From: Candidatus Poribacteria bacterium
Lineage (GTDB): Bacteria > Poribacteria > WGA-4E > PCPOR2b
Length of the DNA: 35,012 nucleotides
Direction: 5' to 3'
Assembly: GCA_022822005.1 (NCBI GenBank)
Contig: JAJECO010000043.1
Coordinates: forward strand, 1-35,012
Within the stretch, counting starts at the first letter, position 1. Each line of letters begins with the position of its first letter. Positions 15,611 through 35,012 of the stretch are shown in pieces. Under the pieces are notes generated by a model. The model saw nothing but the letters and a program-made list of their open reading frames with translations, had not been told where the DNA came from and did no database searches. Made by a program: the position numbers and the translations under genes.

Positions 15611-15667
15611 ATCACTTTTGATGAATTGCATGACTACCTCACTCTAAACTGTAAAGGAAGCAAAATC

Positions 15668-17503
15668 ATGAGCAAGCAACTCTTTCGTTTTAGTTTATTA
15701 CCTTTAATATGGCTCTCGGTTGCATCAACAGGATTCGCACAAGTGGACATCTCAGCCGAGCCCAGCTCAAATATGCCCGCGGTGGGTGATGAAGTTGAAT
15801 TTTCCATTAATATCACTGGCGGATCTAACGTCGCTGGCTATGATTTCAGACTCACCTTTAGTCCAACCGAACTGGAATTTATAAGTATTGAAAATACGGA
15901 CTACCTTGGAGGCGCAGAACGCACACTCCCCTTTAGCCCGACTGAACTGGAATCCATAAGTGATTCAGACTACCCCGTATCAGACGTATATACGATACCG
16001 GCTGTAGTTGGGGATGGTTCGGTGAGATATGCTGCGTTCGCTCTGACCGGTGCGGGAGACGGTGATGGAACCCTCGCCGTAGCAAGGTTTAAGGTATTGG
16101 CAGAAACAGAAACGACGATTGGATTTGAGCGTGTTGTGATTGGGAGTCGAACGGCACAAGAAATTGAAATTGCTTCAAGTACAGGCACAACGATCACTCC
16201 AATCGCTGCCTCAGCAAGTGACGTCGAATTCAAACTGTCGATACCGGTGGGTATCAGTTTGATCCATGTGCCGCTGAAGGTGAATGCCGTTGGTGGAGTG
16301 GCACGGACCATCGAATTTGTCAGCGATCTGTACGACGCACTCGGTGGTGCATCAACCGTCCACTTCCTTGCCACCTATGATTCCTCGGCTCAAGAGTGGC
16401 GCAGCTATTTCAGCACTTTAGACAGAGATGGTCCAGCAAACGCAAGGTTGGCTAACGACACAGGGGTTATGGTCAATCTGAAAGAACCGGTGCCGTCGCT
16501 TCGTCTCCGTGGCAGTGCGTTAGGAACAGATGGGACGAGTACCATCACCTTAAACCGGGGTCTCAATGTTGTGGGTCTGCCGTTGAGAGATCCAAGAATA
16601 TCCCGTGTAAGCCGCCTACTTACGCTCAATGGGATTAAGGGTAACGTCCTTGTGGTTATCCTTACTCATGGCGGGGAGTTCAAGTTAGTTGGAAGACCGG
16701 GAGATCCTGGAGATATAGAAATCACCGGGGGGCAAGCCTTTATCCTGAACACTCTACAGAGTGGGCAGGTTGAAATCTCCGGCGATGCGTGGAGCAACTT
16801 GCCAGAGGCGGGCGGCGCGCCGCCGGTATCGTTGGTGGGTATTGAAGTGGATGATGTAACCCCCATTTTGGCGTTGAGAGGTTCGATTGCTGGCGACGGA
16901 AGGGGATTGAACATGGCCAGCTTCCGCCTCACTGTAAAAAACCGCGCAACCGGTAGAACGATCAGCACCGTAGCAAGAGGTGCACACCACACTCATACGG
17001 ATAATTGGGGATCGGATGGGCTTGGCTATCAACTCACGGACGTTGATTTGCAGACGGGGCATGCGGCTATGATCGGGGATATCCTTGAAATCTCTGCTCA
17101 ATCCTCAAATCCGTTAATCGGTGTGGAACCGTTGCAATATACAGTAACCGCTGAAGATGTAAGGCAGGGTTGGATTCAGTTGCAGACGTTGCACGCCTAT
17201 GAAATACCGGCGGAGACGGCATTGCTGAACAACTACCCAAACCCGTTTAATCCAGAGACATGGATTCCGTATCAACTCGCTCATGCTGCTGATGTGACGC
17301 TTACCATCTATGACACCAAAGGCGCATTAGTGCGTCAATTGGATCTGGGCTATCAGCAGGCGGGATATTACACGGATAGGGCACGGGCGGCGTATTGGGA
17401 TGGACGTAACAATCTGGGCGAGGCGGTAGGGAGTGGTATCTATTTCTATCAACTACGTGCAGCCGATTACTCCATCACACGAAAGATGGTGATTCTCAAA
17501 TAG
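15668..17503 (+). CDS. Secreted cohesin-domain protein with C-terminal sorting module
   Basis: The 611-residue protein starts at the ATG at 15668, with AAAGGAAG about 8 nt upstream; a start 42 bases earlier would put residues before a clean signal peptide. Domains: signal peptide 1-24 (LPLIWLSVASTGFA), a cohesin-like domain about 25-195 (VDISAEPSS, VGDEVEFSINITGGSNVAGY, LTFSPTELEF), a beta-rich module about 205-390 (IPVGISLIHVPLKV, LYDALGGASTV) shared with the triple-cohesin protein, a beta region about 400-505, and the C-terminal module about 515-611 with NYPNPFNPETWIPYQL, IYDTKG, YWDGRNNLGE and IYFYQL. The C-terminal module resembles FlgD-Ig/type IX-like sorting domains. The cohesin contains an internal near-repeat of about 50 bases. 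Cohesins bind dockerins, and the neighbouring genes encode dockerins. Confidence 0.88.
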   Translation: MSKQLFRFSLLPLIWLSVASTGFAQVDISAEPSSNMPAVGDEVEFSINITGGSNVAGYDFRLTFSPTELEFISIENTDYLGGAERTLPFSPTELESISDSDYPVSDVYTIPAVVGDGSVRYAAFALTGAGDGDGTLAVARFKVLAETETTIGFERVVIGSRTAQEIEIASSTGTTITPIAASASDVEFKLSIPVGISLIHVPLKVNAVGGVARTIEFVSDLYDALGGASTVHFLATYDSSAQEWRSYFSTLDRDGPANARLANDTGVMVNLKEPVPSLRLRGSALGTDGTSTITLNRGLNVVGLPLRDPRISRVSRLLTLNGIKGNVLVVILTHGGEFKLVGRPGDPGDIEITGGQAFILNTLQSGQVEISGDAWSNLPEAGGAPPVSLVGIEVDDVTPILALRGSIAGDGRGLNMASFRLTVKNRATGRTISTVARGAHHTHTDNWGSDGLGYQLTDVDLQTGHAAMIGDILEISAQSSNPLIGVEPLQYTVTAEDVRQGWIQLQTLHAYEIPAETALLNNYPNPFNPETWIPYQLAHAADVTLTIYDTKGALVRQLDLGYQQAGYYTDRARAAYWDGRNNLGEAVGSGIYFYQLRAADYSITRKMVILK

Positions 17504-17580
17504 CGAGGAATCACCACCTGTTTCAACAACATACAATAAATTGCCTTACAGTTTATCTTAAACTGCAAAGGAGAAAAGCG

Positions 17581-17796
17581 ATGAACAAACAATTTTTCGT
17601 TTCACTCTGCTTCTGTTGATGTGCTTCTCAGTTCTATCAACGGCAAGGGTACAAATGGAAATCTCAGCCGTACCCAGCGCAAGTAATCCTGCCGTGGGCT
17701 ACCAAATTGAGATCTCCACTAACATTATTGGAGGATCTAACGTCATTGGCTATGATTTTAAGCTCACATTTAACCCGACCATACTGGAATTTAATT
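17581..17796 (+). pseudogene. 5' remnant of a cohesin-domain gene
   Basis: An ATG with AAAGGAG upstream starts MNKQ, as in the cohesin genes at 15668 and 22140. One base is missing in the following T-run compared with the copy at 22140, so the frame stops after about a dozen codons. Read in the shifted frame, the rest is clear cohesin-gene sequence (VLSTARVQMEISAVPSASNP, IIGGSNVIGYDFKLTFNP) up to LEF near 17793. There the similarity ends abruptly and cytochrome-LRR gene sequence begins. It is a broken, fused gene fragment. Confidence 0.8.
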
Positions 17797-20700
17797 GTAC
17801 TCATCGCGCTATTGACATTTATCATCAGTTCTCACACTGTAACTGCTCAACAGCAGATAGCACTCGATGCCCACGCTATCCTTGAACAGAAATGCTTCGT
17901 CTGCCACGGTCCTACAGGGTCCTTCAGAGATGCACTCCTAATAGAACACAACGCACTCATCGAAAACGGCACCGTTGTCCCCGGAAACCCACATACCTCC
18001 GAACTCTATAACCGACTCATAACTACCGACATAGCTAAACGGATGCCACTCCATCAACCTCCCCTATCCGATCAAGAAATTAACACCATTCGGAATTGGA
18101 TATTAGCAGGGGCACCCGATTGGGCAGCGACCACCACAACCAATGGTAACTTCATCTCGCCCGACGACGTACTCACCACCATTGAGACACACCTGATGTC
18201 ACTTTCGTCATTTGACCGCGCGTTCGCTCGCTACTTCACATTGACACATCTTCATAACGCGGGAGAGTCTGCGGGGATACTCCAAGAGTATCGCAAAGCA
18301 CTGTTTAAATTAGTCAATAGCCTCTCATGGGGGGTTGATGTCAACAACCCTATACCTATTGACCCACAAGGAACAATCTTCTACATCGATCTCAGACACT
18401 ATGAATGGGACGTCAATGATGGGTGGGGACAGATAGAAACAGTATATCCCTACCACATCTCATTTGATGCACCGACACAGACCGCACTCAAGGCACAACT
18501 CGGACGATTACAGGGGGAGACCAACAGTACCACACCATCGGTTCATGCTGACTGGTTTATAGCAACTGCATCTCTACCTCCACTGTATCACGACCTACTC
18601 GATTTGAAATTGACGGATAGGGAGTTAGAGACACGACTGGAAGTTGATGTAGACCGTAACCTACAAAATGCACCAGGAGTGCGTGTTTGGAGAGCAGGCA
18701 CCAACGATTCAGGGGTATCGGCTAACAATCGGGTGTTAGAAAGACATCTCTCTCGATATGGTGCGTACTGGAAGAGTTACGACTTTGCTGGCAGTGTTGG
18801 GACACAGAACATCGTCACCCACCCACTTAACTTCACCCATGACGGTGGTGAGGTTATCTTCAATCTTCCGAACGGATTGCAGGGATATTATATAGCTGAT
18901 GCGTCCGGTTTTCGATTAGATGCCGCACCGATAGACATTGTTTCTAACCCCGCAGCGAGTGACCCGACGGTGCGGACGGGGTTGTCCTGTTTCGGTTGCC
19001 ATATAGAAGGTATGAATACATTTGAAGACCAAGTCCGCTCTGTGATAGAGAGTACTACTAACCCAACTTATGACAAGGCACAAGCACTGCGGTTGTATGT
19101 AGAGAAGTCGGAAATGGACGCGCTCGTCCAAGAAGATATGGACAGATACAGGCAGGCACTCGAAGAGACGGGTGGTTCGTTTGGGGATATTGAACCGATA
19201 TCACGATTCCATGAGGCGTATCAGGGGCCGGTCGATGCGGCGTATGCTGCCGCTGTTGTTGGGTTAGAGACTGAAACGTTCCTTGAGAAGATTCGTGAAA
19301 ACCTCGGTCTACAGAACTTAGGTTTATTGGTGTTAGATAGTGGGAGCATGAAACGGGACACATGGAGGTCAAGTTTTGAGGATATAGTTTTTGCGCTGGA
19401 CTTCCCGGATAGTTTCACTCCCCCGCCAGTCATAACCCCACCGGTAGTGACACCGGGTACAGTCGTTCAGATTCGGGATCAAAACCTGCGTATCGCAATA
19501 GCAGAGGAACTTGGTAAGAATCCTAATGCACCAATTACCGCTGAGGACATGGAAAAATTGGACGGATTCGGGGCAGTGAACAGGAACATCCGTGATTTGA
19601 CAGGACTTCAGTTCGCAACCAACTTGGAATGGTTAGAGGTCGGAGGGAATCCATTTTCCGACCTATCACCGCTGGCAGGATTAATCAAACTAAGGACTCT
19701 AAGTTTTCCTCGATCCAATGTATCCGACCTGTCGCCACTCGCCGGATTAATCAATTTGGACAATATATGGTTTAATGCCGGTGCACAAGTATCCGACCTG
19801 TCACCACTCGCCGGATTACTTAACCTGAGAATCATTCACGCAGGAGGGCATTCTATATCCGATCTATCTCCCTTGGCAGGGTTAACAAAACTGGAGCATA
19901 TATATCTTCCGGGCACCGGACTGATATCGGACCTTATACCTTTGGCAGGCTTACCCCTTTTGAAAGAACTGTATCTTGATCGCAACAACATTTCGGATAT
20001 ATCGCTGCTTGCAAGGTTTACCGCGTTAGAGCGTTTGGGGCTTGCTGACAACGAGATATCGGATATATCCCCACTTGCGAAGTTAACCAACTTAACATGG
20101 TTGAAGATCAATGGCAACGAGATATCGGACGTATCGCCGATTTTGAACTTAACCAACTTAACATGGCTAGAGATCGGTGGCAACAACATTTCTGACCTGT
20201 CACCTTTGTCACGCTTAACTCTCTTGAAAGAACTGTATCTTGAGCACAGTGCCATATCGGATGTATCCGCGCTTGCAAGGTTTACCGCGTTAGAGCGTTT
20301 GGGGCTTGCTGACAACGAGATATCGGATATATCCCCGCTTGCGGGGTTAACTAACTTGAAATGGCTAGATCTTGAAAGGAACGAGATATCGAACGTTTCG
20401 CCGATTTTGCGCTTACCCAACTTAACATGGTTATCAGTGAGTCGCAACAACATTTCTGACTTATCACCTTTGGAGGGACTACGCAGCAAGATAACGGTCC
20501 TCTGGGCTGGAAATCCGGGGATTCCACAAGGAGGACCGAAGATAGAGGGACCGTGGCTATGGGTGCTGTTACCGGGTATAGAACTGGAACCGGGCGGTGC
20601 GGATTTGCTATCAGAAGCAAGTGGGGGCACGGTGACAGAATTAGCGGTTGCCACCAATGGCACAAGGGCGGGAACCCCTGTTGGCGATATGGTATGGACA

Positions 20701-22062
20701 TCTTACAGACTCCCGTCTGAGCCACAAAATAATATCGGTGAGATGCTGGGGCACGACCCTCCCGATGGCAGTATCTACGGCATTGTCTCCATCTATTCTC
20801 CACGGGAACAGGAGACAACGTTGCACGTCGGTGCCGATAACGAGCTCAAGGTGTGGCTCAATGGAGTTGTGGTTTATGAGAATTTCGACATTTGGGGATC
20901 TGGTGATTACACCGATTTTGCCCCCGTCACGCTTAGGGCGGGGAAAAATATCCTATTAGTCGCAGTTGGGATAGGCGGTAGGATCCACAATGGCAAATTT
21001 GGCTTTAAACCTGGCACGGAATATACTGTGTCAACGGGTATTGGCTACGCCCTTTCTAAGACGCAAATCCACCTCGGTGATACCTTTACCCTCAACGTCA
21101 GCGCAGAAAATGTCTCCGATTTGGCGGGGTGGCAGTTTAATATCACCTTTGACCCTGCCGCTCTTGAAGCGATTGATGTAACCGAAGGCGATTTCCTGAA
21201 GATGGGCGGTGAAAACACCTTCTTTCAGAGTGGGAGCATTGATAACGCAGCGGGAACAATCATAGGACTCAGCGCGGCGCGGTTGGCCGCTCAAGGTGTG
21301 ACCGGCACCGGTACCTTGCTTCAGGTGAGGTTCAAGGCAAAATCGGGCGGTGAAACAGAGCTGGCAATGCGTAAGTTCGAGTTCGGCACTGCCGCCGGAG
21401 GGACCATCCCTGTGGGTCCGCTTGAGATCTACATCACTGTTGAAGAACTGCTCCCCACCGGGGACGTGAATCGAGATGGACGGGTGAGTATTCTGGATCT
21501 GATTCTCGTCGCACAGCAGTTGGGGAGAAGGGTGCCCGCCGGCTCTGCCGTGGATGTCAATGGTGACGGTGTTGTCAGTGTTCTTGATCTCATCCGCGTG
21601 GCACAGGGGATCGCTGGATCATCTGCTGCGCCTCCGGTTGGATCAGAGAGTGTAGATGCTGCGATGATAGAAGCGTGGATTGCACAAGCGCAGTTGGAAG
21701 ATGATGGTTCGCTCGCTTTCAAACAGGGCATAGAGAATCTTCAGAACTTATTAGCCTCAATGATTCCTGAGGAGACTGCGTTGCTCCGTAACTATCCGAA
21801 CCCGTTTAACCCGGAAACGTGGATTCCGTATCAACTCGCCCATGATGCTGATGTGACGCTCATCATTTATGACGCGAAAGGTGCAGTGGTGCGTCGATTG
21901 CGGCTGGGGTATCAGCAGGCGGGATATTACACGAATAAAACAGATGCAGCGTATTGGGACGGGCGCAACCACTTAGGTGAGTCGGTGGGCAGTGGTCTCT
22001 ATTTCTACCAGCTACGTGCAGGGGATTATTCCGCTATGCGAAAGATGGTTATCCTAAAATAG
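17752..22062 (+). CDS. Giant secreted protein: c-type cytochrome, LRR, lectin-like, cohesin, dockerin, sorting module
   Basis: From the ATG at 17752 the protein has 1436 residues; a TTG at 17707 is an alternative start. Its N-terminus is read out of frame through the cohesin remnant, but a hydrophobic segment (LIVLIALLTFIIS) followed by TVTAQQ restores a signal peptide. In order: heme motif CFVCH (48-52) with Met98 in RMPL as possible ligand, resembling planctomycete-type cytochrome domains; a roughly 300-residue region of unknown fold; a second CFGCH (413-417); TPPPVITPPVV linker; about 13 internalin-like LRRs of roughly 22 residues (605-920, ISDLSPLAGLTNL); a beta-sandwich with LKVWLNGVVVYENF (925-1092); a cohesin (1095-1232); a dockerin (1236-1289) with DVNRDGRVSILD and DVNGDGVVSVLD; and NYPNPFNPETW with C-terminal sorting module (1347-1436). 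The predicted location is the cell surface or outside, with covalent heme. Confidence 0.88.
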   Translation: MILSSHLTRPYWNLIVLIALLTFIISSHTVTAQQQIALDAHAILEQKCFVCHGPTGSFRDALLIEHNALIENGTVVPGNPHTSELYNRLITTDIAKRMPLHQPPLSDQEINTIRNWILAGAPDWAATTTTNGNFISPDDVLTTIETHLMSLSSFDRAFARYFTLTHLHNAGESAGILQEYRKALFKLVNSLSWGVDVNNPIPIDPQGTIFYIDLRHYEWDVNDGWGQIETVYPYHISFDAPTQTALKAQLGRLQGETNSTTPSVHADWFIATASLPPLYHDLLDLKLTDRELETRLEVDVDRNLQNAPGVRVWRAGTNDSGVSANNRVLERHLSRYGAYWKSYDFAGSVGTQNIVTHPLNFTHDGGEVIFNLPNGLQGYYIADASGFRLDAAPIDIVSNPAASDPTVRTGLSCFGCHIEGMNTFEDQVRSVIESTTNPTYDKAQALRLYVEKSEMDALVQEDMDRYRQALEETGGSFGDIEPISRFHEAYQGPVDAAYAAAVVGLETETFLEKIRENLGLQNLGLLVLDSGSMKRDTWRSSFEDIVFALDFPDSFTPPPVITPPVVTPGTVVQIRDQNLRIAIAEELGKNPNAPITAEDMEKLDGFGAVNRNIRDLTGLQFATNLEWLEVGGNPFSDLSPLAGLIKLRTLSFPRSNVSDLSPLAGLINLDNIWFNAGAQVSDLSPLAGLLNLRIIHAGGHSISDLSPLAGLTKLEHIYLPGTGLISDLIPLAGLPLLKELYLDRNNISDISLLARFTALERLGLADNEISDISPLAKLTNLTWLKINGNEISDVSPILNLTNLTWLEIGGNNISDLSPLSRLTLLKELYLEHSAISDVSALARFTALERLGLADNEISDISPLAGLTNLKWLDLERNEISNVSPILRLPNLTWLSVSRNNISDLSPLEGLRSKITVLWAGNPGIPQGGPKIEGPWLWVLLPGIELEPGGADLLSEASGGTVTELAVATNGTRAGTPVGDMVWTSYRLPSEPQNNIGEMLGHDPPDGSIYGIVSIYSPREQETTLHVGADNELKVWLNGVVVYENFDIWGSGDYTDFAPVTLRAGKNILLVAVGIGGRIHNGKFGFKPGTEYTVSTGIGYALSKTQIHLGDTFTLNVSAENVSDLAGWQFNITFDPAALEAIDVTEGDFLKMGGENTFFQSGSIDNAAGTIIGLSAARLAAQGVTGTGTLLQVRFKAKSGGETELAMRKFEFGTAAGGTIPVGPLEIYITVEELLPTGDVNRDGRVSILDLILVAQQLGRRVPAGSAVDVNGDGVVSVLDLIRVAQGIAGSSAAPPVGSESVDAAMIEAWIAQAQLEDDGSLAFKQGIENLQNLLASMIPEETALLRNYPNPFNPETWIPYQLAHDADVTLIIYDAKGAVVRRLRLGYQQAGYYTNKTDAAYWDGRNHLGESVGSGLYFYQLRAGDYSAMRKMVILK
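17817..18410 (+). repeat. Long duplicated block, copy 1 (partner 34419-35012)
   Basis: This 594-base block matches 34419-35012 without any indel (constant offset 16602) and with only scattered substitutions. It covers the end of the signal peptide and the cytochrome module. The second copy runs off the window, so the full duplication is longer. Confidence 0.85.
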
Positions 22063-22139: not shown

Positions 22140-24209
22140 TTGAACAAACAACTTTTTCGTTTCGCCTTATTCCTGCTGGTGTGCGTCTCACTTCCATTGA
22201 TGGCAGCAGCGCAGGTAGAGATTTCTGCTGTATCCAACGTCGATAATCCTGACGTGGGCGACCAAATTGAAGTCTCCATTAACATTGCTGGAGGATCTAA
22301 CGTCGCTGGCTATGATTTTACACTCACCTTTGACCCAACTCAACTCCAATACATAAACATTGAAAATGCGGACTACCTGCCCCCAAACACGTTTGCACTA
22401 GAACCCGCAGTCGGGAACAATTCAGTGAAATTTGCTGCAGCCGCTCTGATGGGAACAGGCGAAGGTGATGGAACCCTCGCCGTAGCAACGTTTAGGGTAT
22501 TGGTCAAAACAGAAACAACGATAGGATTGGAGGATATTGAGATTGGTGATCCAGAAATACAACTCCTTACAATCGCATCGGTTACAGGGACAACGATGAA
22601 CTCAACCAATTCTGGCACCCCAACCGTCCCTGATACCCCAACTACTCCTGAGACCCCAACTACCCCCGAGACTCCAACCACTCCTAGCGAAAACGTGTTG
22701 GTTACGGGTATAAGAGTTTCAGCTGTACCCAGCGTCGATAATCCCGCGATAGGCGACCAAATTGAAGTCTCCATTAACATTGCTGGAGGATCTAACGTCG
22801 CTGGCTATGATTTTACACTCACCTTTGACCCAACCAAGCTTGAATTCGTAAGCATTGAAAATGCAGATTTCCTTCCAGCAAGCGCGATTCCGCTCCCACC
22901 CACAGTTGAGGAGGGTTCAGTAAAATTTAATGCGGTTGTTCTGACGGGAACAGGTGAAGGCGATGGAACCCTCGCCATAGCAACGTTTAGAGTATTAGTC
23001 AAAACAGAGACGACGATAGGATTGGAAAATATTGAGATTGGTGATCCAGAAGCAGAACTCCTTACAATCGCATCGGTTACAGGGGCAACTATTAACTCAA
23101 CTAGCTCTACAACGGACTCTACGACAGAGACACAGGTGGAAACCCCCACCGTACCCAGCACAGATCCCCCTGCAACAAATGACGACACAGCGAGTTCTAC
23201 GACAGCAGCACAAGTGGAAATCTCTGCTGTACCCAGCGTCGATAATCCCGCGATAGGCGACACTATTGAGATAACCATCAATATTGCCGGAGGATTTAAC
23301 GTTGTTGGCTATGATTTCACACTCACCTTTGACCCAACCAAGCTTGAATTCGTAAGCATTGAAAATGCAGATTTCCTTCCAGCAGGGGCATTTGTACTTT
23401 CACCCATAGTTGAGAACGGTTCAGTGAATTTTTTTGCTGCCGCTGCGAGCGGGACGGGCGGAAGTGATGGAACCCTCGCCGTAGCAACGTTTAAGGTATT
23501 AGCCGAAACAGAAACGACAGTAAGATTTGAGCACGTTGAAATCGGGGATCAAATGGCAGCCCCCCTTGCAATTGCCTCCGTTACAGGAGCAATCATTAAT
23601 CGGGTTGCCGCGACGGTAGATGCTGAAGTAGAATACCTTCTGTCGATACCGGCGGGTACCAATCTAATTCATGTCCCCTTGAGGGTGACAGCCGTTAACG
23701 GGATGGCAAGAACTATCGCATCTATCGCTGATCTCTACGACGCGCTTGGTGGTGCATCAACCGTCAACTTCCTCATCACCTATGACTCCCACGCTCAAGA
23801 ATGGCGCAGCTATTTTGGTGCTTCTGACAAACGTGGTCCCGGGGACGCAAGGTTGACTGCCGACAAAGGAGTTATCGCCGATCTAAGAACCCGCGTATCA
23901 GTTCGGCTAACTGGCAGCGCGTTAGGGGAAACCGGAAACGGCATCATCACCCTAAATCCTGGTCTCAACGTTGTGGGACTGCCGTTGGACGATTCCAGGA
24001 TAACCCGTGTGAGCGACCTATTTGCGCTCAATGGGATTGGTGGTAACGTTCCTGTGATTATCCTCACCGATGGCGGAGGGTTCAAGGTGGTTGGACGAGC
24101 GGGCGATCCGGAAGATATACAAATCACCGGGGGACAATCCTTTATACTGAACGCTCAACGGCCGGCGACGGTGATTATCTACGGTGATGGCTGGACTAAC
24201 ATCAGATAA
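22140..24209 (+). CDS. Secreted triple-cohesin (scaffoldin-like) protein without sorting module
   Basis: The 689-residue protein starts at TTG 22140, supported by AGGGGAG about 8 nt upstream and by the aligned start of its paralogue (MNKQLFRF matches MSKQLFRF). Signal peptide 1-24 ends in MAAAQ. Three cohesin domains follow at about 26-155, 192-320 and 358-487, each with VxISAVPSVDNPAIGD, INIAGGSNVAGYDFTLTFDP, LEFVSIENADFLP and GDGTLAVATF. They are separated by flexible linkers, one Pro/Thr-rich (TPTTPETPTTPETPTTP) and one Ser/Thr-rich. A beta module at about 495-689 matches residues 205-390 of the 15668 protein. It stops there, so the NYPNPFNPETW module found in all complete neighbours is missing. 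Several cohesins in one chain is how scaffoldins of cellulosomes are built; the partners here would be the adjacent dockerin proteins. Confidence 0.87.
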   Translation: MNKQLFRFALFLLVCVSLPLMAAAQVEISAVSNVDNPDVGDQIEVSINIAGGSNVAGYDFTLTFDPTQLQYINIENADYLPPNTFALEPAVGNNSVKFAAAALMGTGEGDGTLAVATFRVLVKTETTIGLEDIEIGDPEIQLLTIASVTGTTMNSTNSGTPTVPDTPTTPETPTTPETPTTPSENVLVTGIRVSAVPSVDNPAIGDQIEVSINIAGGSNVAGYDFTLTFDPTKLEFVSIENADFLPASAIPLPPTVEEGSVKFNAVVLTGTGEGDGTLAIATFRVLVKTETTIGLENIEIGDPEAELLTIASVTGATINSTSSTTDSTTETQVETPTVPSTDPPATNDDTASSTTAAQVEISAVPSVDNPAIGDTIEITINIAGGFNVVGYDFTLTFDPTKLEFVSIENADFLPAGAFVLSPIVENGSVNFFAAAASGTGGSDGTLAVATFKVLAETETTVRFEHVEIGDQMAAPLAIASVTGAIINRVAATVDAEVEYLLSIPAGTNLIHVPLRVTAVNGMARTIASIADLYDALGGASTVNFLITYDSHAQEWRSYFGASDKRGPGDARLTADKGVIADLRTRVSVRLTGSALGETGNGIITLNPGLNVVGLPLDDSRITRVSDLFALNGIGGNVPVIILTDGGGFKVVGRAGDPEDIQITGGQSFILNAQRPATVIIYGDGWTNIR
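22615..22690 (+). repeat. Pro/Thr-linker tandem repeat
   Basis: A short in-frame DNA repeat encodes consecutive TPETPT-type units between cohesin 1 and cohesin 2. It is a typical flexible, possibly glycosylated, interdomain linker. Confidence 0.65.
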
Positions 24210-24464: not shown

Positions 24465-27266
24465 ATGTTTAGACGTTATTGCGTCCCCCATTTGATTCAG
24501 GTTTATAAGCAGCACCACATCAAAATCCTCTGCCTATTGGCAGTCATTATCGGTTCTCAAGTAGGATTCGTCCAACTACAGGTTACCCAAGATGCCGATG
24601 CTGGTTCTCAACAGACGGCTGTGGTCGCTCGTATCCCTGACCCAAACCTGCGCGCAGCAATAGCGGAAGCACTCGGTAAAAGCGCCAATGCCCAAATTAC
24701 TACGGAAGAATTGGCTACATTGGGAGAACTCGACGTTCCGAACAGGGGTATCCAAGATTTGACTGGACTTCAGTTTGCAATCAATCTGAGACGGTTGATG
24801 CTTGGCAATTGGGGCACGGGGAATCAGGTATCCGACATCTCACCGCTAGCAGGATTAATTAACCTACGTGAATTATGGCTTGGCCATAACCCCGTATCTG
24901 ATCTATCTCCGCTGAGGGGCTTAAACAATCTTACTCGGCTGGAAATTCATAATACCCAGATATCCGACCTGTCACCGATTGCTGGATTAATCAGTCTGCA
25001 GCGGTTAGGTGTCTCCCATACCAACGTATCCGACCTGTCACCGATTGCTGGACTCATTAATATAGAAAGATTAGATTTTCACGATGACAGCATATCGGAC
25101 ATATCGCCGCTGGCGCAATTAATCAACCTGAAAGAATTTAACACGTGGGGCAATCCCATAGCCGATATATCGCCTATAGCGCAACTATCAAAGCTGGAGG
25201 TGGTAAATATTTGCGACGGGGATCTACCAGATCTCACCCCCTTAACAGGATTAACAGGTTTGAAGGAACTGTATCTTGCCAACGACAGAATATCGGATAT
25301 ATCACCGCTTGCGAGATTAACTGGGTTAACCCGTTTATCGCTTAGGGTTAATAACATATCGAATCTATCGCCGATTAGAGGTCTCACTCAATTGGAATGG
25401 TTAGAACTTGGCGAGAACGACATATCGGATATATCACCCCTTACGGGATCAACCGGATTAACCCATCTGGATCTTCAGCTCAACGACATCTCGAATCTAT
25501 TCTCGCTTGCAGGATTAACCAACTTAACTTGGCTAAATCTTCAAAACAATAACATCTCGGACGCAGCCCCACTTGCGGGTTTGACCAACTTAACTTGGCT
25601 AAATGTTGCAGAAAACGAGATCTCCGACCTTTCGCCTTTGGACGGGCTCCGCGAGAATCTAAAACTCACCTATCACGGCAATCCAGCGTTCCCGAAAGGG
25701 GGACCGCAAATAGAAGGACCATGGTTATGGACAATCGTCCCGACAGGAGGGCGGAGTGGTAGTGATGCTGCTGCGTCTGGAATAGATTTTCTAGCACAAG
25801 CAAGTGGTGGTGAAGTAACGGAGTTGAAGGTTGCAACAGTCGGTGCAAATGAGGGATCCCCTGTCGGAGACAGCCTGTGGATAGCCCACACAATTTCCAC
25901 AGCGGACAATAACATTAACACAATGGCGAACGCGACCGGACTAGGAACAGGCAATATAGACCACCATGTTGCTTATGGTTCAGTGACCTTGAATACACCG
26001 CGAGAGCAAGACACAATGATGTTTGTAGGGAGCAATGATGCTGTCAAGGTTTGGCTCAATGGACAGGTGGTTCACAACAATCCGATCGATCGGAAGGTTA
26101 GCGGCTATGCGGATATTTTTCCTGTTACGTTAAAGATGGGAATAAATATCTTATTAGTTGCCGTTTATGAGGGAGGCGGCACTTGGAGCGGTTTTTTTGG
26201 ATTTGAACCCGGTACAGAATATACAGCCGCAAACCCCGGGCTCAGTTACACCTTTTCTAAGATGCCAATTCACGCGGGGGACACCTTTACCCTCGATATC
26301 GGCGCAAGAGATTTCTTTGACTTGGCAGGTTGGCAATTTGATATCACTTTCGACCACCCTATTCTTGAAGCAATCAGCGTAACCGAAGGTAACTTCCTAA
26401 AGATGGGGAGTACAACCTTCTTTGAGGGTGGATCCATTGATAACGTAAGTGGCAAAATCACAGGACTCAGGGCGGCGCGGCTGTCGCCCGGTGGGGTCAG
26501 TGGGACCGGCCCCTTACTTCAGGTGACGTTCAAGGCAAAAGCGGGAGGAGAAACAGCGTTGGTACTGCAGGATGTCGAGTTTGGCGATCCCACAGGGGCG
26601 CTCATCCCCGCAGGTCCGCATGAGATTCGGATCACTGTGGGCGGACAACTTGCCACCGGAGATGTGAATCGAGATGGGGTTGTCAGCATTCTGGATCTGA
26701 TTCTCGTCGCACGTCAGTTGGGACAAAGGGTACCTGCCAACTCAGCGGCAGACCTCAACGGCGATGGTACTGTCAGTATCCTCGACCTGATTCTTGCGGC
26801 CCGAAGTCTTGGCAGCACCACAACGCCCGCTGCGCCATCAGGCAGGACAGAAAACGTAGACACTGCGACGATAAGAGCTTGGCTAACACAAGCACAACTG
26901 GAAGATGATGGGTCAATTGCTTTCGAACAAGGTATAGAAAAACTTGAGAACCTGTTAGCCTCGTTAATACCTGAAGAGACTGCGTTGTTAGCAAACTATC
27001 CTAATCCATTTAACCCTGAAACATGGATACCGTATCAGTTGACAGAGTCAGCAGAGGTAACCCTGACAATCTATGATATAAACGGACAGTTGGTTCGACG
27101 ATTGGCGGTGGGTCATCAAGCAGCGGGTATGTATAGAAATCGAACTCGTGCTATCTATTGGGATGGACGAAATCAACTCGGTGAATCTGTTGCCAGTGGT
27201 CTCTATTTCTATACGCTGACAGCGGGAGAGTTTACAGCAACACGGCGGATGCTGATTCTAAAATAA
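24465..27266 (+). CDS. Secreted LRR, lectin-like, cohesin, dockerin protein with sorting module
   Basis: The 933-residue protein starts at the ATG at 24465, with GAGGAAAA about 9 nt upstream. The N-terminus has a hydrophobic core at about 19-38 (IKILCLLAVIIGSQVGFVQL), a signal peptide with a long basic n-region. IPDPNLRAAIAEALG (57-71) is the LRR N-cap; about 13 internalin-like LRRs follow to about 400 (ISDISPLAGLTNLTWLNLQN). GGPQIEGPWLW links to a beta-sandwich (405-587, AVKVWLNGQVVH, FFGFEPGTEYT). Next come a cohesin (592-728, IHAGDTFTLDIGARDFFDLA), a dockerin (731-783, DVNRDGVVSILD and DLNGDGTVSILD) and the sorting module (842-933, NYPNPFNPETW, YWDGRNQLGE, LYFYTL). There is no CxxCH, unlike its larger relatives. 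The LRR surface could bind host or neighbour-cell ligands; this is an inference. Confidence 0.9.
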   Translation: MFRRYCVPHLIQVYKQHHIKILCLLAVIIGSQVGFVQLQVTQDADAGSQQTAVVARIPDPNLRAAIAEALGKSANAQITTEELATLGELDVPNRGIQDLTGLQFAINLRRLMLGNWGTGNQVSDISPLAGLINLRELWLGHNPVSDLSPLRGLNNLTRLEIHNTQISDLSPIAGLISLQRLGVSHTNVSDLSPIAGLINIERLDFHDDSISDISPLAQLINLKEFNTWGNPIADISPIAQLSKLEVVNICDGDLPDLTPLTGLTGLKELYLANDRISDISPLARLTGLTRLSLRVNNISNLSPIRGLTQLEWLELGENDISDISPLTGSTGLTHLDLQLNDISNLFSLAGLTNLTWLNLQNNNISDAAPLAGLTNLTWLNVAENEISDLSPLDGLRENLKLTYHGNPAFPKGGPQIEGPWLWTIVPTGGRSGSDAAASGIDFLAQASGGEVTELKVATVGANEGSPVGDSLWIAHTISTADNNINTMANATGLGTGNIDHHVAYGSVTLNTPREQDTMMFVGSNDAVKVWLNGQVVHNNPIDRKVSGYADIFPVTLKMGINILLVAVYEGGGTWSGFFGFEPGTEYTAANPGLSYTFSKMPIHAGDTFTLDIGARDFFDLAGWQFDITFDHPILEAISVTEGNFLKMGSTTFFEGGSIDNVSGKITGLRAARLSPGGVSGTGPLLQVTFKAKAGGETALVLQDVEFGDPTGALIPAGPHEIRITVGGQLATGDVNRDGVVSILDLILVARQLGQRVPANSAADLNGDGTVSILDLILAARSLGSTTTPAAPSGRTENVDTATIRAWLTQAQLEDDGSIAFEQGIEKLENLLASLIPEETALLANYPNPFNPETWIPYQLTESAEVTLTIYDINGQLVRRLAVGHQAAGMYRNRTRAIYWDGRNQLGESVASGLYFYTLTAGEFTATRRMLILK
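26193..26870 (+). repeat. Near-identical cohesin-dockerin cassette, copy 1 (partner 28915-29592)
   Basis: About 678 bases encoding the end of the beta-sandwich, the cohesin and the dockerin match 28915-29592 at constant offset 2722, with no indel seen and only some two dozen substitutions by eye. The flanking LRR region is far more divergent. This suggests recent gene conversion or duplication. Confidence 0.8.
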
Positions 27267-27354: not shown

Positions 27355-29988
27355 ATGGTTAAGTGTTATTTCGTCCTCAATTTGATTGGGGTTTATAAGC
27401 AGCATCACATCAAAATCATCTGCCTATTGGGAGTCATTATCGGTTCTCAAATAGGATTCGTCCAACTACAGGTTACCCAAGATGCCGATGCCAGCTCTCA
27501 ACAGCAGGCTGTGGTTGTTCAGATCCCTGACCCGAACCTGCGTGCGTTGATTGCAGAAACGCTTAGCAAAAACCCCAGTGCCCCAATTACTGTCGAAGAT
27601 ATGGAAAGGCTGAAAGAAATCGATGCGAGGAAAGACAGGGGCATCAAAGATTTGACGGGGCTTCAGTATGCGACTAATCTGGTCGAGTTATATCTCGGTT
27701 GGTATTCAGGGGAGGGCAATCAGGTGTCTGACCTCTCGCCGGTAGCAGGCTTAACCAACCTCCGTGTGCTTTTTCTTCACCATAACCCTATATCCGATCT
27801 GTCTCCTGTGAGAGGTTTAACAAATCTAACCGATCTGATGCTTCACGATACTTTGGTATCGGATATATCCCCCGTCAGGGGCTTAACCAACCTTACGATA
27901 TTACACTTTCACGGGACTGAGGTAACTGACCTTTCACCAATCAGCGGACTCATTAACCTGAGAAACTTAGCGTTTTCTGATCCAGATCTATCTGATATAT
28001 CGCCGGTAGCAGGCTTAATTAACCTAGAAACGATTTTCTCGTGGAACCACTCTATATCCGATTTATCCGCTTTGTCCGGCTTGACAAAATTGAGGACGAT
28101 AGATTTGTGCGGTGGAAACATATCGGATTTAATGCCTTTGAGGGGCTTAACCGGTTTGAAAGAACTGTATTTAGTCGGTAATGATATATTGGATATATCA
28201 CCGCTTGCGGAATTAACCGGTCTAACCCGTTTATCGCTTAGGGTTAATAACATATCGGACATATCGCCGATTAGAGGGCTCACTCAACTGCAATGGCTAC
28301 ATCTTGAGGGCAACAACATATCGGACGTATCGCCCCTCGCGGGATTAGCCAACTTAACATGGTTAGATGTTGCAAACAACGAGATCTCTAACTTTGCGCC
28401 TTTGGATAGGATACGCGAGAATATAAAACTCTTTTGGTACGGCAACCCAGCGTTTCCAGAAGGCGGTCCCAAGATTGAAGGTCCATGGCTATGGGCCATA
28501 TTACTAGACACAGAGTTGAGCAGCAGTAGAGATTTACTATCGGAGGCAAGTGGGGGCACAGTAACAGAGGCCGAGATTGCTACCCATGGAGCAGCGGAAG
28601 GAAAACCGGTCGGCGATGATATATGGACCTCTCACAGGCTCCCGCCTACAGGAAGAGCTAATATTGAAGATATGCTTCAGGACTCCATCCATGACGCAGT
28701 GATTTATGGATCTATCTCGCTATACTCGCCAAGACAGCAGGAAACAACAATGTACGTCGGCGGCGAGGACGGCGTAAAGGTTTGGCTCAACGGCGTCGTG
28801 GTTTACGAGGATTTTCGTAGGCGTGAAGCAGATGATTACGAGACTTTCTTCCCGGTCACACTGAAGCAGGGGAGGAATGTCTTATTAGTCGCAGTTCACA
28901 CTTTAGGCACCGGCTTTTTTGGATTTGAACCCGGTACAGAATATACAGCCGCAAACCCCGGGCTCAGTTACACCTTTTCTAAGATGCCAATTCACGCGGG
29001 GGACACCTTTACTCTTGATATCGGCGCAAGAGATTTCTTTGACTTGGCAGGTTGGCAATTTGATGTCACTTTCGACCACCCTATCCTTGAAGCAATCAGC
29101 GTAACCGAAGGTAATTTCCTAAAGATGGGCAGCACAACCTTCTTTGAGAGCGGAGCCATTGATAACGCAGCCGGCAAAATCACAGGACTTCGGGCGGCGC
29201 GGCTGTCGCCCGGTGGGGTCAGTGGGACCGGCCCCTTACTTCAGGTGACGTTCAAGGCAAAAGCGGGAGGAGAAACAGCGTTGGTACTGCAGGATGTCGA
29301 GTTTGGCGATCCCACAGGGACGCTCATCCCCGCAGGTCCGCATGAGATTCGGATCACTGTGGGCGGACAACTTGCCACCGGAGATGTGAATCGAGATGGG
29401 GTTGTCAGCATTCTGGATCTGATTCTCGTCGCACGTCAGTTGGGACAAAGAGTACCCGCCAACTCAGCGGCAGACCTCAACGGTGATGGTACTGTCAGTA
29501 TCCTCGACCTGATCCTTGCGGCGCGAAGTCTTGGCAGCACCACAACGTCCGCTGCGCCATCAGTCGGGACAGACAGCGTAGACACTGCGATGATAGAAGC
29601 GTGGGTTTCACAGGCACGATTGGAAGATGACGGGTCAATTGCTTTCAAGGAAGGTATCAAGAATCTTGAAAATCTGCTCACCTCATTGATACCGGAACAG
29701 ACTGCGCTATTGGCAAACTATCCGAATCCGTTTAACCCGGAGACGTGGATACCGTATCAGTTGACAGAGTCAGCAGAGGTAACGCTGACAATTTATGATA
29801 TGAACGGACAAGTGGTTCGACGTTTGGCGGTGGGACATCAAGCAGCAGGTATGTATCGGAGCCGCAGCCGGGCAGTCTATTGGGACGGACGGAATCAGCT
29901 TGGTGAACCTGTCGCCAGCGGCCTCTATTTCTACATGCTGACAGCAGACGAATTCACAGCAACACGAAAAATGCTGATTCTAAAATAA
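27355..29988 (+). CDS. Secreted LRR, lectin-like, cohesin, dockerin protein with sorting module (paralogue)
   Basis: The 877-residue protein starts at the ATG at 27355, with AGGAGA about 9 nt upstream. The N-terminal signal region (GVYKQHHIKIICLLGVIIGS) is almost the same as in the preceding gene, also at DNA level. LRR N-cap IPDPNLRALIAETLSKNP; about 11 LRRs to about 345; beta-sandwich about 350-531 (GVKVWLNGVVVYEDF); cohesin about 536-672; dockerin about 675-727 (DVNRDGVVSILD, DLNGDGTVSILD); sorting module 786-877 (NYPNPFNPETW, YWDGRNQLGEP). It is 56 residues shorter than its neighbour, the difference lying upstream of the cohesin. The cohesin-dockerin cassette is near-identical to that of the previous gene while the LRRs differ. 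It carries no heme motif. Confidence 0.9.
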   Translation: MVKCYFVLNLIGVYKQHHIKIICLLGVIIGSQIGFVQLQVTQDADASSQQQAVVVQIPDPNLRALIAETLSKNPSAPITVEDMERLKEIDARKDRGIKDLTGLQYATNLVELYLGWYSGEGNQVSDLSPVAGLTNLRVLFLHHNPISDLSPVRGLTNLTDLMLHDTLVSDISPVRGLTNLTILHFHGTEVTDLSPISGLINLRNLAFSDPDLSDISPVAGLINLETIFSWNHSISDLSALSGLTKLRTIDLCGGNISDLMPLRGLTGLKELYLVGNDILDISPLAELTGLTRLSLRVNNISDISPIRGLTQLQWLHLEGNNISDVSPLAGLANLTWLDVANNEISNFAPLDRIRENIKLFWYGNPAFPEGGPKIEGPWLWAILLDTELSSSRDLLSEASGGTVTEAEIATHGAAEGKPVGDDIWTSHRLPPTGRANIEDMLQDSIHDAVIYGSISLYSPRQQETTMYVGGEDGVKVWLNGVVVYEDFRRREADDYETFFPVTLKQGRNVLLVAVHTLGTGFFGFEPGTEYTAANPGLSYTFSKMPIHAGDTFTLDIGARDFFDLAGWQFDVTFDHPILEAISVTEGNFLKMGSTTFFESGAIDNAAGKITGLRAARLSPGGVSGTGPLLQVTFKAKAGGETALVLQDVEFGDPTGTLIPAGPHEIRITVGGQLATGDVNRDGVVSILDLILVARQLGQRVPANSAADLNGDGTVSILDLILAARSLGSTTTSAAPSVGTDSVDTAMIEAWVSQARLEDDGSIAFKEGIKNLENLLTSLIPEQTALLANYPNPFNPETWIPYQLTESAEVTLTIYDMNGQVVRRLAVGHQAAGMYRSRSRAVYWDGRNQLGEPVASGLYFYMLTADEFTATRKMLILK
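28915..29592 (+). repeat. Near-identical cohesin-dockerin cassette, copy 2 (partner 26193-26870)
   Basis: Second copy of the cassette described at 26193-26870. Identity starts inside the TTTTTTGG run before FGFEPGTEYT and fades after the dockerin, in the SLGSTTT linker. Confidence 0.8.
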
Positions 29989-30110
29989 GGTAGTAGATAT
30001 TGCTTTGAAGCGCGCCGGGCCCCTGGTCTCGGAACGGACGATCTATCGCGGATCTCATCGGGTCGCCGTATGCCGTGCCCCTTGAAACTATCTATAAGGA
30101 GACATTTTTT

Positions 30111-33100
30111 ATGTTTAAGCGTTGTTTCACCGCGTATTTGATTGGGAGTTGTAAGCAACAACAGCATCGTATCGCCCTCATTTGTCTATTGATATGCACC
30201 CTCTGGTCTCAAAATGTGCACTCTCAACAACAGATAGCCCAAGACGCCTACGCTATCCTTGAACAGAATTGCTTCAACTGTCACGGTCCTGAGGGTTCCT
30301 ATAGAGACACACTCTTCATAGAATACAACGCACTCATCGAAAATGGAACCGTTGTGCCGGGAAACCCCAACGCCTCAGAACTGTATAAGCGACTTGTTAC
30401 CACTGAAACAGCCAAACGGATGCCGCTCGGAGGTCCGCTATCCGCTCAAGCAATCAGCACAATCCAAAACTGGATATTAGCCGGTGCTCCTGATTGGGCA
30501 TCAACTTCTACCACCAATAGTCAATTCGTCTCCCCCGGTGATGTACTCAATACTATAGAGACACACCTGATGTCACTTTCGTCATTTGACCGTACATTTG
30601 CCCGGTACTTTACAATGACACACCTCTATAACGCAGGTGAGTCGCCGCAGATACTTGAAGAGTATCACAAAGCACTCTCCAAACTGGTCAACAGTCTTTC
30701 ATGGGGAGCTACAGTCATCAATCCAGAGCCTATCGACTCACAAGGGACTATCTTCTATATCGATCTGAGACACTACGAATGGGATCGGAATGATGCTTGG
30801 ACAGAGATAGAAGCAGTATATCCCTACTATATCTCGTTTGATGCACCGACACAGACCGTACTTAAGGAACAACTGGAACAGTTACAGGGGGAGATGCAGA
30901 GTGATATACCATCGGTGCACGCCGACTGGTTCATAGCAACAGCATCTTTACCGCCACTATATCACGCCCTGCTATCTCTACCATCGACAGATAGGGCGCT
31001 AGAAACCCGATTGGAGGTTGACGTTGACCACAATCTACAGAATGCGCCGGGGGTGCGTGTATGGCGTGCAGGGACCAACAATTCCCGTGTCTCCGCTAAC
31101 AACCGTGTGTTAGAGAGACATCTCTCTCGCTATGGCGCGTACTGGAAGAGTTACGACTTTGCTGGCAGTGTTGGGGCACAGAACATCTTTACTCATCCGC
31201 TTTCATTTACGCATGATGGTGGGGAGGTTATTTTCAATCTGCCTAACGGGTTGCAGGGATACTATATAGCTGATGCGTCTGGTATTCGATTAGATGCAGC
31301 ACCGATAAGCATCGTATCCAACCCGGCAGCGAGTGACCCGACGGTGCGGACGGGGTTGTCCTGTTTCGGTTGTCATATCGAGGGGATGAACACATTTGAG
31401 GATCAAGTCCGTTCTGTGATAGAGAGTAATACTAACCCAACTTACGACAAAGCACAAGCGCTGCGCCTCTATGTAGAGAAGTCAGAGATGGACGCACTTG
31501 TTCAAGAAGATATAGACACGTACAGGCAGGCACTTGAAGAGACGGGGGGTGCGTTTGATGATATCGAACCGATATCGCGATTTCATGAGGTGTTTCAAGA
31601 CGAGGTGGATGCTGCGTATGCCGCTGCTGTAATCGGTTTAGAGACCGAAACGTTCCTTGAGAGGATTCGTGAGAATATAGGACTACAGAACTTAGGTTTG
31701 TTGGTGTTAGCCAGTGGGAGTATGAAGCGTGACGTATGGACATCAAGTTTTGAGGATATAGTTTTTGCGCTGGACTTCCCGGACAGTTTCACTCCCCCGC
31801 CGGTCATAACCCCACCGGTGGTGACACCGGGCGCCGTTGTTGATATCCCGGATCCAGGTCTACGTACTGCGATAGCAGAGACACTTGGTAAAAGTCTCAG
31901 TGCCCCGATTACTGTGGAGGAGATGGAACAGTTGGGGAGACTTGATGCGAAAAACAGGGATATTCGGGATTTGATGGGACTTCAGTTTGCTATCAATCTG
32001 AACGAGTTATTTCTCAACAACAATCAGATTTCCGACCTCTCACCGATAGCTGGCTTAATTACCCTAAGAATATTGGACATTTGGAACAACCCTGTATCTG
32101 ATTTGTCTCCTGTGAAGAACTTAACAGATCTCTATGATCTAGCTTTTGGGACGACTTTGGTATCCGATCTATCGCCGGTTGCGGGATTGGTCAACTTAGA
32201 GAATTTAGGTTTTTACGGTGCTCCTGTATCCGACCTATCGCCAATTGCAGGACTAATCAATCTGAAGGGTTTAGGTTTTTCGAGTGAGAAGATAACCGAC
32301 CTATCACCAGTTGCAGGACTAATCAATCTAGGCTGGATTCTCACGTGGGGCAGTCTCATATCCGATTTATCACCCGTAGCTGGACTAACAAAACTGAATT
32401 ATCTAGAGGTTTCCGGCGCAGAGATATCAGACCTAACGCCTTTGTCAGGTTTAGTCAACCTGACAAGGCTGCATCTTCACGTCAATAACATATCGGACCT
32501 ATCACCCCTTGCGGAATTAACCCAATTAACTGTTATATCTCTTTCAGACAACCATATCTCGGACGTATCGCCGCTTGCGGGTTTGACCAACTTGGAACGG
32601 CTAACACTCGACAACAACGAAATCGACGACATTTCACCTTTGGACGGGTTAGGCGAGAACATAAAACTCCTTTGGCACAGCAATCCGGGGTTCCCAAAAG
32701 GGGGCCCGAAAATAGAAGGACCGTGGTTATGGGTCGTGGTGCCTGATGCCAGACTGGAGCACGATACAGATCTCCTATCAGAAGTGAGTGGGGGTACGGT
32801 AACAGAAGTAGAAATTGCTGCTCATGGGGTGATAGAGGGACAGTCTGTCGGGCAGGAGGTATGGACATCCTATAAACTTCCGCCTACAGGAAGGAACAAT
32901 ATTGAAGATATGCTGAAACGCTCCATTAAAGACGGAGTCATTTATGGCACCGTGTCCCTGTATTCGCCACGGGATCAGGAAACGACAATGTATGTCGGTA
33001 GCGATGATAGGATAAAGGTCTGGCTCAACGGGATTTTGGTTTATGAGTATCTCCGCGGGAGCGGTGATGATGACTACAGTGATTTTTTCCCGGTCACGTT

Positions 33101-34338: not shown

Positions 34339-35012
34339 ATGTTTAAGTGTTATTTCACCCCCAATTTGACTGGAGTTTGTAAGAAGCAACACCTCATCTC
34401 GCTCGTTTATTTATTTATATTTATCATCAGTTCTCACACTGTAACCGCTCAACAACAGATAGCACTTGATGCCCACGCTATCCTCGAACAGCGCTGCTTC
34501 ATCTGCCACGGTCCTACAGGGTCCTTCAGAGATGCACTCCTAATAGAACACAACGCACTCATCGAAAACGGCACCGTCGTCCCCGGAAACCCACATACCT
34601 CCGAACTCCATAACCGACTCATAACTACGGATATAGTCAAACGGATGCCACTCAATCAACCTCCCCTATCCGATCAAGAAATTAACACCATTCGGAATTG
34701 GATATTAACAGGGGCACCCGATTGGGCAGCAACCACCACAACCAATGGTAACTTTATCTCACCCGACGAAGTACTCACCACCATTGAGACACACCTGATG
34801 TCACTTTCGTCATTTGACCGCGCGTTCGCTCGCTACTTCACATTGACACATCTTCATAACGCAGGAGAGTCTGCGGGGATACTCCAAGAGTACCGCAAAG
34901 CACTGTTTAAATTAGTCAATAGCCTCTCATGGGGGGTTGATGTCAACAACCCTATACCTATTGACCCACAAGGAACAATCTTCTACATCGATCTCAGACA
35001 CTATGAATGGGA
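34339..35012 (+). CDS. Cytochrome-containing LRR-family protein (N-terminal part, cut by window edge)
   Basis: About 224 residues are visible from the ATG at 34339, with AGGAGG about 9 nt upstream. The N-terminus MFKCYFTPNLTG is the intact form of the family signal peptide (core LISLVYLFIFIIS, end TVTAQQ). A heme-binding CFICH lies at about residues 55-59 and RMPL follows. The rest matches the cytochrome half of the 17752 protein nearly residue for residue (NALIENGTVVPGNPHTSEL, WILTGAPDWA, RYFTLTHLHNAGES). It is probably another full-length cytochrome-LRR-cohesin-dockerin protein, but LRR and later domains are outside the window, so that is inference. Confidence 0.87.
   Translation, partial: MFKCYFTPNLTGVCKKQHLISLVYLFIFIISSHTVTAQQQIALDAHAILEQRCFICHGPTGSFRDALLIEHNALIENGTVVPGNPHTSELHNRLITTDIVKRMPLNQPPLSDQEINTIRNWILTGAPDWAATTTTNGNFISPDEVLTTIETHLMSLSSFDRAFARYFTLTHLHNAGESAGILQEYRKALFKLVNSLSWGVDVNNPIPIDPQGTIFYIDLRHYEW
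34419..35012 (+). repeat. Long duplicated block, copy 2 (partner 17817-18410)
   Basis: Indel-free partner of 17817-18410. It continues past the right window edge, so its true length is unknown. Confidence 0.85.

Follow-up and report, generated by a model that had tools for sequence, protein, structure and literature searches.

The window analysed here is a stretch of 35,012 nucleotides from a Candidatus Poribacteria bacterium (contig JAJECO010000043.1 of assembly GCA_022822005.1; this genome is G000 below), in which a gene for a protein with three tandem cohesins lies among genes for LRR proteins that carry dockerins. The window is a whole contig of the assembly, so its last gene, at 34339, is incomplete. 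The genes, named by their first coordinate, and the parts of the triple-cohesin gene are as follows (CTD, C-terminal domain).

15626..17503, + strand: single-cohesin paralogue of 22140, with a cohesin (15779-16168), an LSIP domain and a FlgD_ig/T9SS-type CTD
17561..17793 (about), + strand: remnant cohesin gene, with a ribosome-binding site, an ATG at 17581, a frameshifted signal peptide and a partial cohesin
17707..22062, + strand: diheme-LRR-cohesin-dockerin-CTD protein (CxxCH at residues 63 and 428; cohesin 21061-21369, dockerin 21460-21606)
22140..24209, + strand: triple-cohesin protein of 689 aa that starts at TTG, with a signal-peptide-like N terminus, three cohesins and an unnamed C-terminal domain
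22209..22619, + strand: cohesin 1 of 22140 (PF00963 at 22230-22538, 52.8 bits)
22608..22697, + strand: Pro/Thr linker joining cohesin 1 to cohesin 2, read from the sequence as TPTVPDTPTTPETPTTPETPTTP
22701..23114, + strand: cohesin 2 of 22140 (PF00963 at 22722-23081, 46.1 bits)
23094..23210, + strand: Ser/Thr/Pro linker joining cohesin 2 to cohesin 3, read from the sequence
23202..23610, + strand: cohesin 3 of 22140 (PF00963 at 23229-23528, 54.6 bits; AlphaFold model)
23628..24203, + strand: 'LSIP' domain at the C terminus of 22140, about 190 aa, without a Pfam family
24465..27266, + strand: LRR-cohesin-dockerin-CTD protein (cohesin 26271-26573, dockerin 26658-26795)
27355..29988, + strand: LRR-cohesin-dockerin-CTD protein (cohesin 28993-29295, dockerin 29380-29517)
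30075..34250, + strand: diheme-LRR-cohesin-dockerin-CTD protein (CxxCH at residues 66 and 430; cohesin 33231-33542, dockerin 33621-33767)
34339..35010, + strand: 5' portion of a further diheme protein of the 17707-type family, ending at the contig end

The TTG start of 22140 is preceded at short distance by a GGGGAG ribosome-binding site, and the N terminus of its product, MNKQLFRFALFLLVCVSLPLMAAAQ, resembles a signal peptide when judged by eye. The Cohesin profile PF00963 matches the protein over three stretches (E=6.7e-39, 133.7 bits against a cut-off of 24.1), and the AlphaFold model of cohesin 3, with a pLDDT of about 90 across the cohesin part, has the predicted fold of solved type I cohesins. 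Its nearest solved relatives, at TM scores of 0.74-0.76, are 1g1k (C. cellulolyticum), 6kgc, 1aoh (C. thermocellum CipA) and 2xdh (Archaeoglobus fulgidus). Profile scores, modelled fold and linker sequences thus bear out the earlier note, which had read three tandem cohesins on Pro/Thr linkers here, and a chance or low-complexity match is ruled out by the scores and the fold. The three cohesins are 65-73% identical to one another in protein and 73-82% in DNA, values too low for a repeat made by the assembly or for a very recent triplication; assembly duplication of a single cohesin is ruled out by the 18-27% DNA difference between copies. Cohesin is the sole Pfam family above cut-off in the protein, an NCBIfam search gave no match, and profile searches found no dockerin, carbohydrate-binding module, anchor or C-terminal sorting domain. 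Multiple tandem cohesins without a catalytic domain are a mark of scaffoldins, and 22140 has both features. The LSIP domain, for which a Pfam search returned no family and folding gave low pLDDT, is shared by 15626 and further secreted proteins of Poribacteria.

Dockerin_1 scores above cut-off in four same-strand neighbours (17707, 24465, 27355 and 30075), the number given in the earlier note, and in 24465 it falls at residues 732-777, where that note had placed the dockerin at 731-783. The description of these neighbours as LRR/cytochrome proteins holds for the LRRs, which all four carry, while the PSCyt1 region and the CxxCH motifs are confined to 17707 and 30075. Nor are they plain dockerin partners: the layout of a multi-cohesin gene beside dockerin genes is present, but each neighbour has its own cohesin 5-6 residues N-terminal to the dockerin, in the order (diheme)-LRR-cohesin-dockerin-FlgD_ig/T9SS-type end. 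Being cohesin-dockerin tandems, the neighbours could bind one another as well as the scaffold. The cohesins of 27355 and 24465 are 96% identical. Coding probably starts at ATG 17752 in 17707, and ATG 30111 is the more likely start in 30075.

A FlgD_ig/T9SS-type CTD closes both the LRR proteins and 15626 but is lacking in 22140, and the four CTD proteins that were scanned reach 27.6-34.6 bits with TIGR04183 (cut-off 23). A 2014 study described Poribacteria as being without the structural genes of the T9SS (PMC3909097). G000 holds an SprA-like open reading frame of 2170 aa (L310:1870-8382, contig C44) that matches TIGR04189 with E=1.5e-43 and 148 bits, below the equivalog cut-off of 200, and PorP-like matches in the genome are likewise below cut-off.

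Upstream of 22140, a truncated and frameshifted cohesin gene (17561-17810) runs into the diheme gene 17707, whose predicted signal peptide consists partly of out-of-frame cohesin DNA. The remnant at 17561-17793 corresponds to the initial part of a cohesin, ends where the 17707 gene starts, and is 76% identical to 22140 and 72% to 15626. From about 17810 the DNA of 17707 is 96% identical to 34412-35012; conversely, the gene at the contig end shares 96% DNA identity with 17810-18410 over 601 bp. The junction at 17561-17810 reflects either recombination or a chimeric assembly join.

The four window dockerins carry every ligand in both calcium loops (D-x-N-x-D...D), as do type I dockerins of PF00404. 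In an alignment of 80 cohesin-dockerin tandems of the diheme-LRR family, loop 1 has the D/N/D/D ligands in all 80 rows, and loop 2 has them in no fewer than 78 of its ungapped rows. Clostridial type I dockerins carry a Ser-Thr recognition pair at positions 10/11; this pair is absent here and is replaced by Ile/Val-Leu in both loops. The recognition positions of the tandems are alike in their two loops (Ile/Val-Leu and Ala-Gln/Arg), a match that is compatible with dual binding, and across G000 the dockerins are alike as well, with mostly I/V-L and A-Q/R/N/S. The linker between cohesin and dockerin is 5-6 residues long in 74 of the 80 tandems, and the tandem model (pLDDT 92.8, pTM 0.81) suggests a fairly fixed orientation of the two domains. 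By structure comparison the tandem cohesin is nearest to type II cohesins and to those that C. perfringens and A. fulgidus have outside cellulosomes, with 2w1n, 2jh2 and 2vo8 of C. perfringens among the nearest solved cohesins of this fused type.

The near-constant linker and the confident tandem model would also suit a quite different role, in which the cohesin and dockerin of the LRR proteins form a rigid unit like X-module-dockerin pairs and the cohesins of 22140 are β-sandwich spacers on a secreted stalk that bind no dockerin, and the variation of cohesin arrays between species is in line with it. We nevertheless regard this explanation as quite improbable, since the calcium ligands are essentially invariant and since stand-alone cohesin genes pair with same-strand dockerin genes far above chance, as a spacer role would not predict. 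Among 60 further loci picked by similarity to the 22140 protein there are 31 cohesin genes without a dockerin of their own, and for 16 of these a distinct dockerin gene is no more than 3 kb away, in 15 cases on the same strand. Set against a background in which 5.9% (about 6%) of G000 is at most 5 kb from a dockerin, this gives P of about 4e-12, or 7e-9 at a background of 10%, for genes that are not fully independent, as several are orthologues, although at least half a dozen architectures show the pairing. The excess is weaker in five complete relatives with an incomplete dockerin list (3 of 16 adjacent against 0.75 expected, P=0.03). Pairing so far above chance supports the view that cohesins and dockerins act in trans. 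The partner dockerin proteins that were scanned carry Reeler, cadherin/Ig, WD40 or subtilase-WD40 domains.

The tree of 100 poribacterial cohesins divides into two clades (support 97/80), one of the stand-alone/multi type and one of the fused type. Cohesins 1-3 of 22140 cluster with that of 15626 and with the single-cohesin orthologues from three relatives in the genus (100/99), which indicates a lineage-specific array; no three-cohesin orthologue of 22140 was found in the genus, where the relatives have one cohesin. Further arrays occupy other places in the stand-alone/multi half (G006 with five cohesins, G016 with three, G014 and G053 with two each), while proteins with three cohesins, a dockerin and a CTD (G010, G013, G017 and L229) form a single clade in the fused half (98/97). 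These separate positions imply that multi-cohesin proteins arose several times in the phylum. A shared origin of the 22140 triple and the G010/G013/G017/L229 proteins is ruled out by their different clades.

Some of these other arrays have settings of their own. The genes for three cohesins, a dockerin and a CTD in G010, G017 and L229 adjoin a diheme-LRR-cohesin-dockerin gene; separately evolved loci of this architecture are L107, L109, L110 and L229, of which L107, L109 and L229 lie beside such a gene. A triple-cohesin gene, of an origin different from that of 22140, stands beside a gene of the diheme-LRR family at only one of 75 loci. The five-cohesin protein of G006 (L106:7551-14432) has 2294 aa and also contains PKD, Big_1 repeats and a CTD.

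The single cohesin of the genus orthologues, together with the tandem duplication, the broken cohesin gene and the near-identical segments in the cluster, raises the thought that the triple is a lineage-specific by-product of a recombining cluster of surface-protein genes in which genes and domains duplicate, its copies redundant and without a scaffolding role. Cohesins that have diverged to 65-73% identity in an intact frame with Pro/Thr linkers are hard to reconcile with this, as is the recurrence of multi-cohesin genes in other lineages, and we consider it very unlikely.

Cohesins and dockerins are abundant well beyond the window. G000 encodes 17 cohesins and 48 dockerins, and cohesins were found in all 40 related genomes searched. 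The diheme-LRR-cohesin-dockerin-CTD family is multicopy and highly conserved phylum-wide: 434 stretches of the genome collection encode a relative, the relatives retrieved by means of the diheme domain are all from Candidatus Poribacteria, and the cohesin-dockerin-CTD end is present in nearly all fully read members at 75 loci. Our literature search found no paper that mentions dockerins and Poribacteria together. Other arrangements of the two modules occur too. Two G000 loci (L082 on contig C9 and L083 on C10) fuse a cohesin to Spondin_N, and on C9 a separate dockerin gene follows 73 bp after the fusion gene on the same strand; three genus relatives (L159, L160 and L161) encode reversed dockerin-cohesin-CTD proteins of about 1340 aa that adjoin cohesin-CTD genes.

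Elsewhere in G000, dockerins are attached to putative glycosyl hydrolases (GHL15 and DUF6259) as well as to a metallopeptidase-like protein. Six GHL15-dockerin proteins were scanned, mostly with LRRs and all with a C-terminal dockerin, and three further unscanned tandem neighbours of GHL15 proteins have a dockerin of this kind at their end. They lie at L073 (contig C16, with five tandem dockerin genes, three of them scanned), L095, L080 and L076, which we read as a putative enzyme-dockerin layout, and at L077 (C44) the one scanned member of three tandem dockerin proteins has a DUF6259 domain. The earlier note had called the complex non-cellulolytic; with dockerins elsewhere on putative hydrolases, that term fits the locus, which has no hydrolase, and does not extend to the genome.

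This wider supply of dockerins bears on the choice of partner, which is the main uncertainty of our interpretation: the scaffold and neighbour cohesins belong to different clades (97/80), so pairing with the neighbours' dockerins is not given; two of the three genus orthologues of 22140 (L154 and L155) have no dockerin gene nearby; and the dockerins of the neighbours may be adapted to cohesins of the fused type. The scaffold might then act in trans on other dockerin proteins of G000 (GHL15/DUF6259 or other secreted proteins), leaving the window neighbours to pair among themselves. Besides the division into two clades, it agrees with this that the stand-alone cohesin genes of relatives adjoin dockerin genes mostly without a cohesin, and that the 48 dockerins on offer include the six scanned GHL15 proteins with their three unscanned neighbours and the DUF6259 protein with its two tandem neighbours. 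Yet 22140 sits directly among the fused proteins, the dockerin recognition positions are alike genome-wide, and a dockerin tree of 49 columns, mostly unresolved with few branches settled, does not cleanly separate fused from stand-alone dockerins. We regard this division of partners as unlikely.

On balance we lean slightly towards 22140 being a small, non-catalytic, lineage-specific scaffoldin that binds the dockerins of its neighbours in trans, as part of a non-cellulosomal surface system of cohesins and dockerins found across Poribacteria. What the data show are the domains and the order of the genes, the calcium ligands, how the families are distributed, the repeated origin of multi-cohesin proteins and the more than random pairing of cohesin with dockerin genes. 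Binding, stoichiometry, location, partner choice and biological role are inferred for the scaffold, and we tentatively propose the following mechanism. The scaffoldin would be exported by means of its signal peptide, and its three cohesins would serve as sockets for the calcium-dependent dockerins of surface-anchored or secreted partners. The nearest candidates for these are the LRR and diheme-LRR proteins, which would be held at the outer membrane by their T9SS-type CTD. A single molecule could bridge up to three partners, and because each partner's own tandem can take up a further dockerin, the tandems would extend the network. Such bridging might bring recognition modules (LRR) together with redox or haem modules at the surface of the sponge symbiont.

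More speculatively, Poribacteria at large may assemble networks on their surface that depend on calcium, with cohesin-dockerin pairs joining LRR, diheme, WD40 and cadherin-like proteins, the tandems chaining head to tail and the repeatedly evolved multi-cohesin scaffolds acting as branch points, to form a layer for recognition or electron transfer towards the sponge host and not for digestion; we hold this broader picture to be rather unlikely as it stands. Cohesins and dockerins are familiar chiefly as parts of digestive complexes. If our interpretation is true, the same pair of modules also builds surface architecture in sponge symbionts across a phylum, which gives a testable idea of how 'eukaryote-like' symbiont proteins with LRR, WD40 and cadherin-like domains are organised on the cell, and the window offers concrete cohesin-dockerin pairs for testing it.

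Among known systems, 22140 can be compared with the primary scaffoldins of cellulosomes, such as CipA of C. thermocellum, which share with 22140 the tandem cohesins, the Pro/Thr linkers and the lack of a catalytic domain; the model of cohesin 3 matches the cohesins of CipA and C. cellulolyticum with TM scores of about 0.75. However, 22140 has only three cohesins and no cellulose-binding module, dockerin or SLH anchor, and its neighbours are LRR and diheme proteins instead of cellulases. With neither a CBM nor an anchor, and beside non-hydrolase neighbours, the 22140 locus is not a cellulosome.

Nearest among published cases are the C. perfringens glycosidase complexes, the mucinolysomes, the ANME proteins and the Ca. 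Stygibacter scaffoldin. In the non-cellulosomal glycosidase complexes of C. perfringens, cohesins and dockerins occur on the same class of protein, some with both (PMC12997984), but each cohesin protein there combines one cohesin with a GH domain, whereas the window has a non-catalytic three-cohesin protein with LRR and diheme partners. The mucinolysome and the amylosome likewise assemble through cohesins and dockerins, and their substrates are not cellulose (PMC12997984); their partners, unlike those in the window, are hydrolases. The scaffoldin-like protein of Ca. Stygibacter (Cloacimonadota) has tandem cohesins and dockerin partners in a system with a T9SS-type C-terminal domain (PMC8542988); at 3,755 aa, with CBM2/CBM3 and GH or peptidase partners, it differs from 22140, which has neither CBM nor CTD. 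Non-cellulosomal proteins with up to five cohesins and a dockerin, proposed to lie at the cell surface, are found in ANME archaea (PMC9012536). These differ in belonging to archaea and in having ABC substrate-binding and S-layer proteins as common partners, and their plan is nearer to that of the poribacterial proteins with three cohesins, a dockerin and a CTD (L107, L109, L110 and L229) than to that of 22140.
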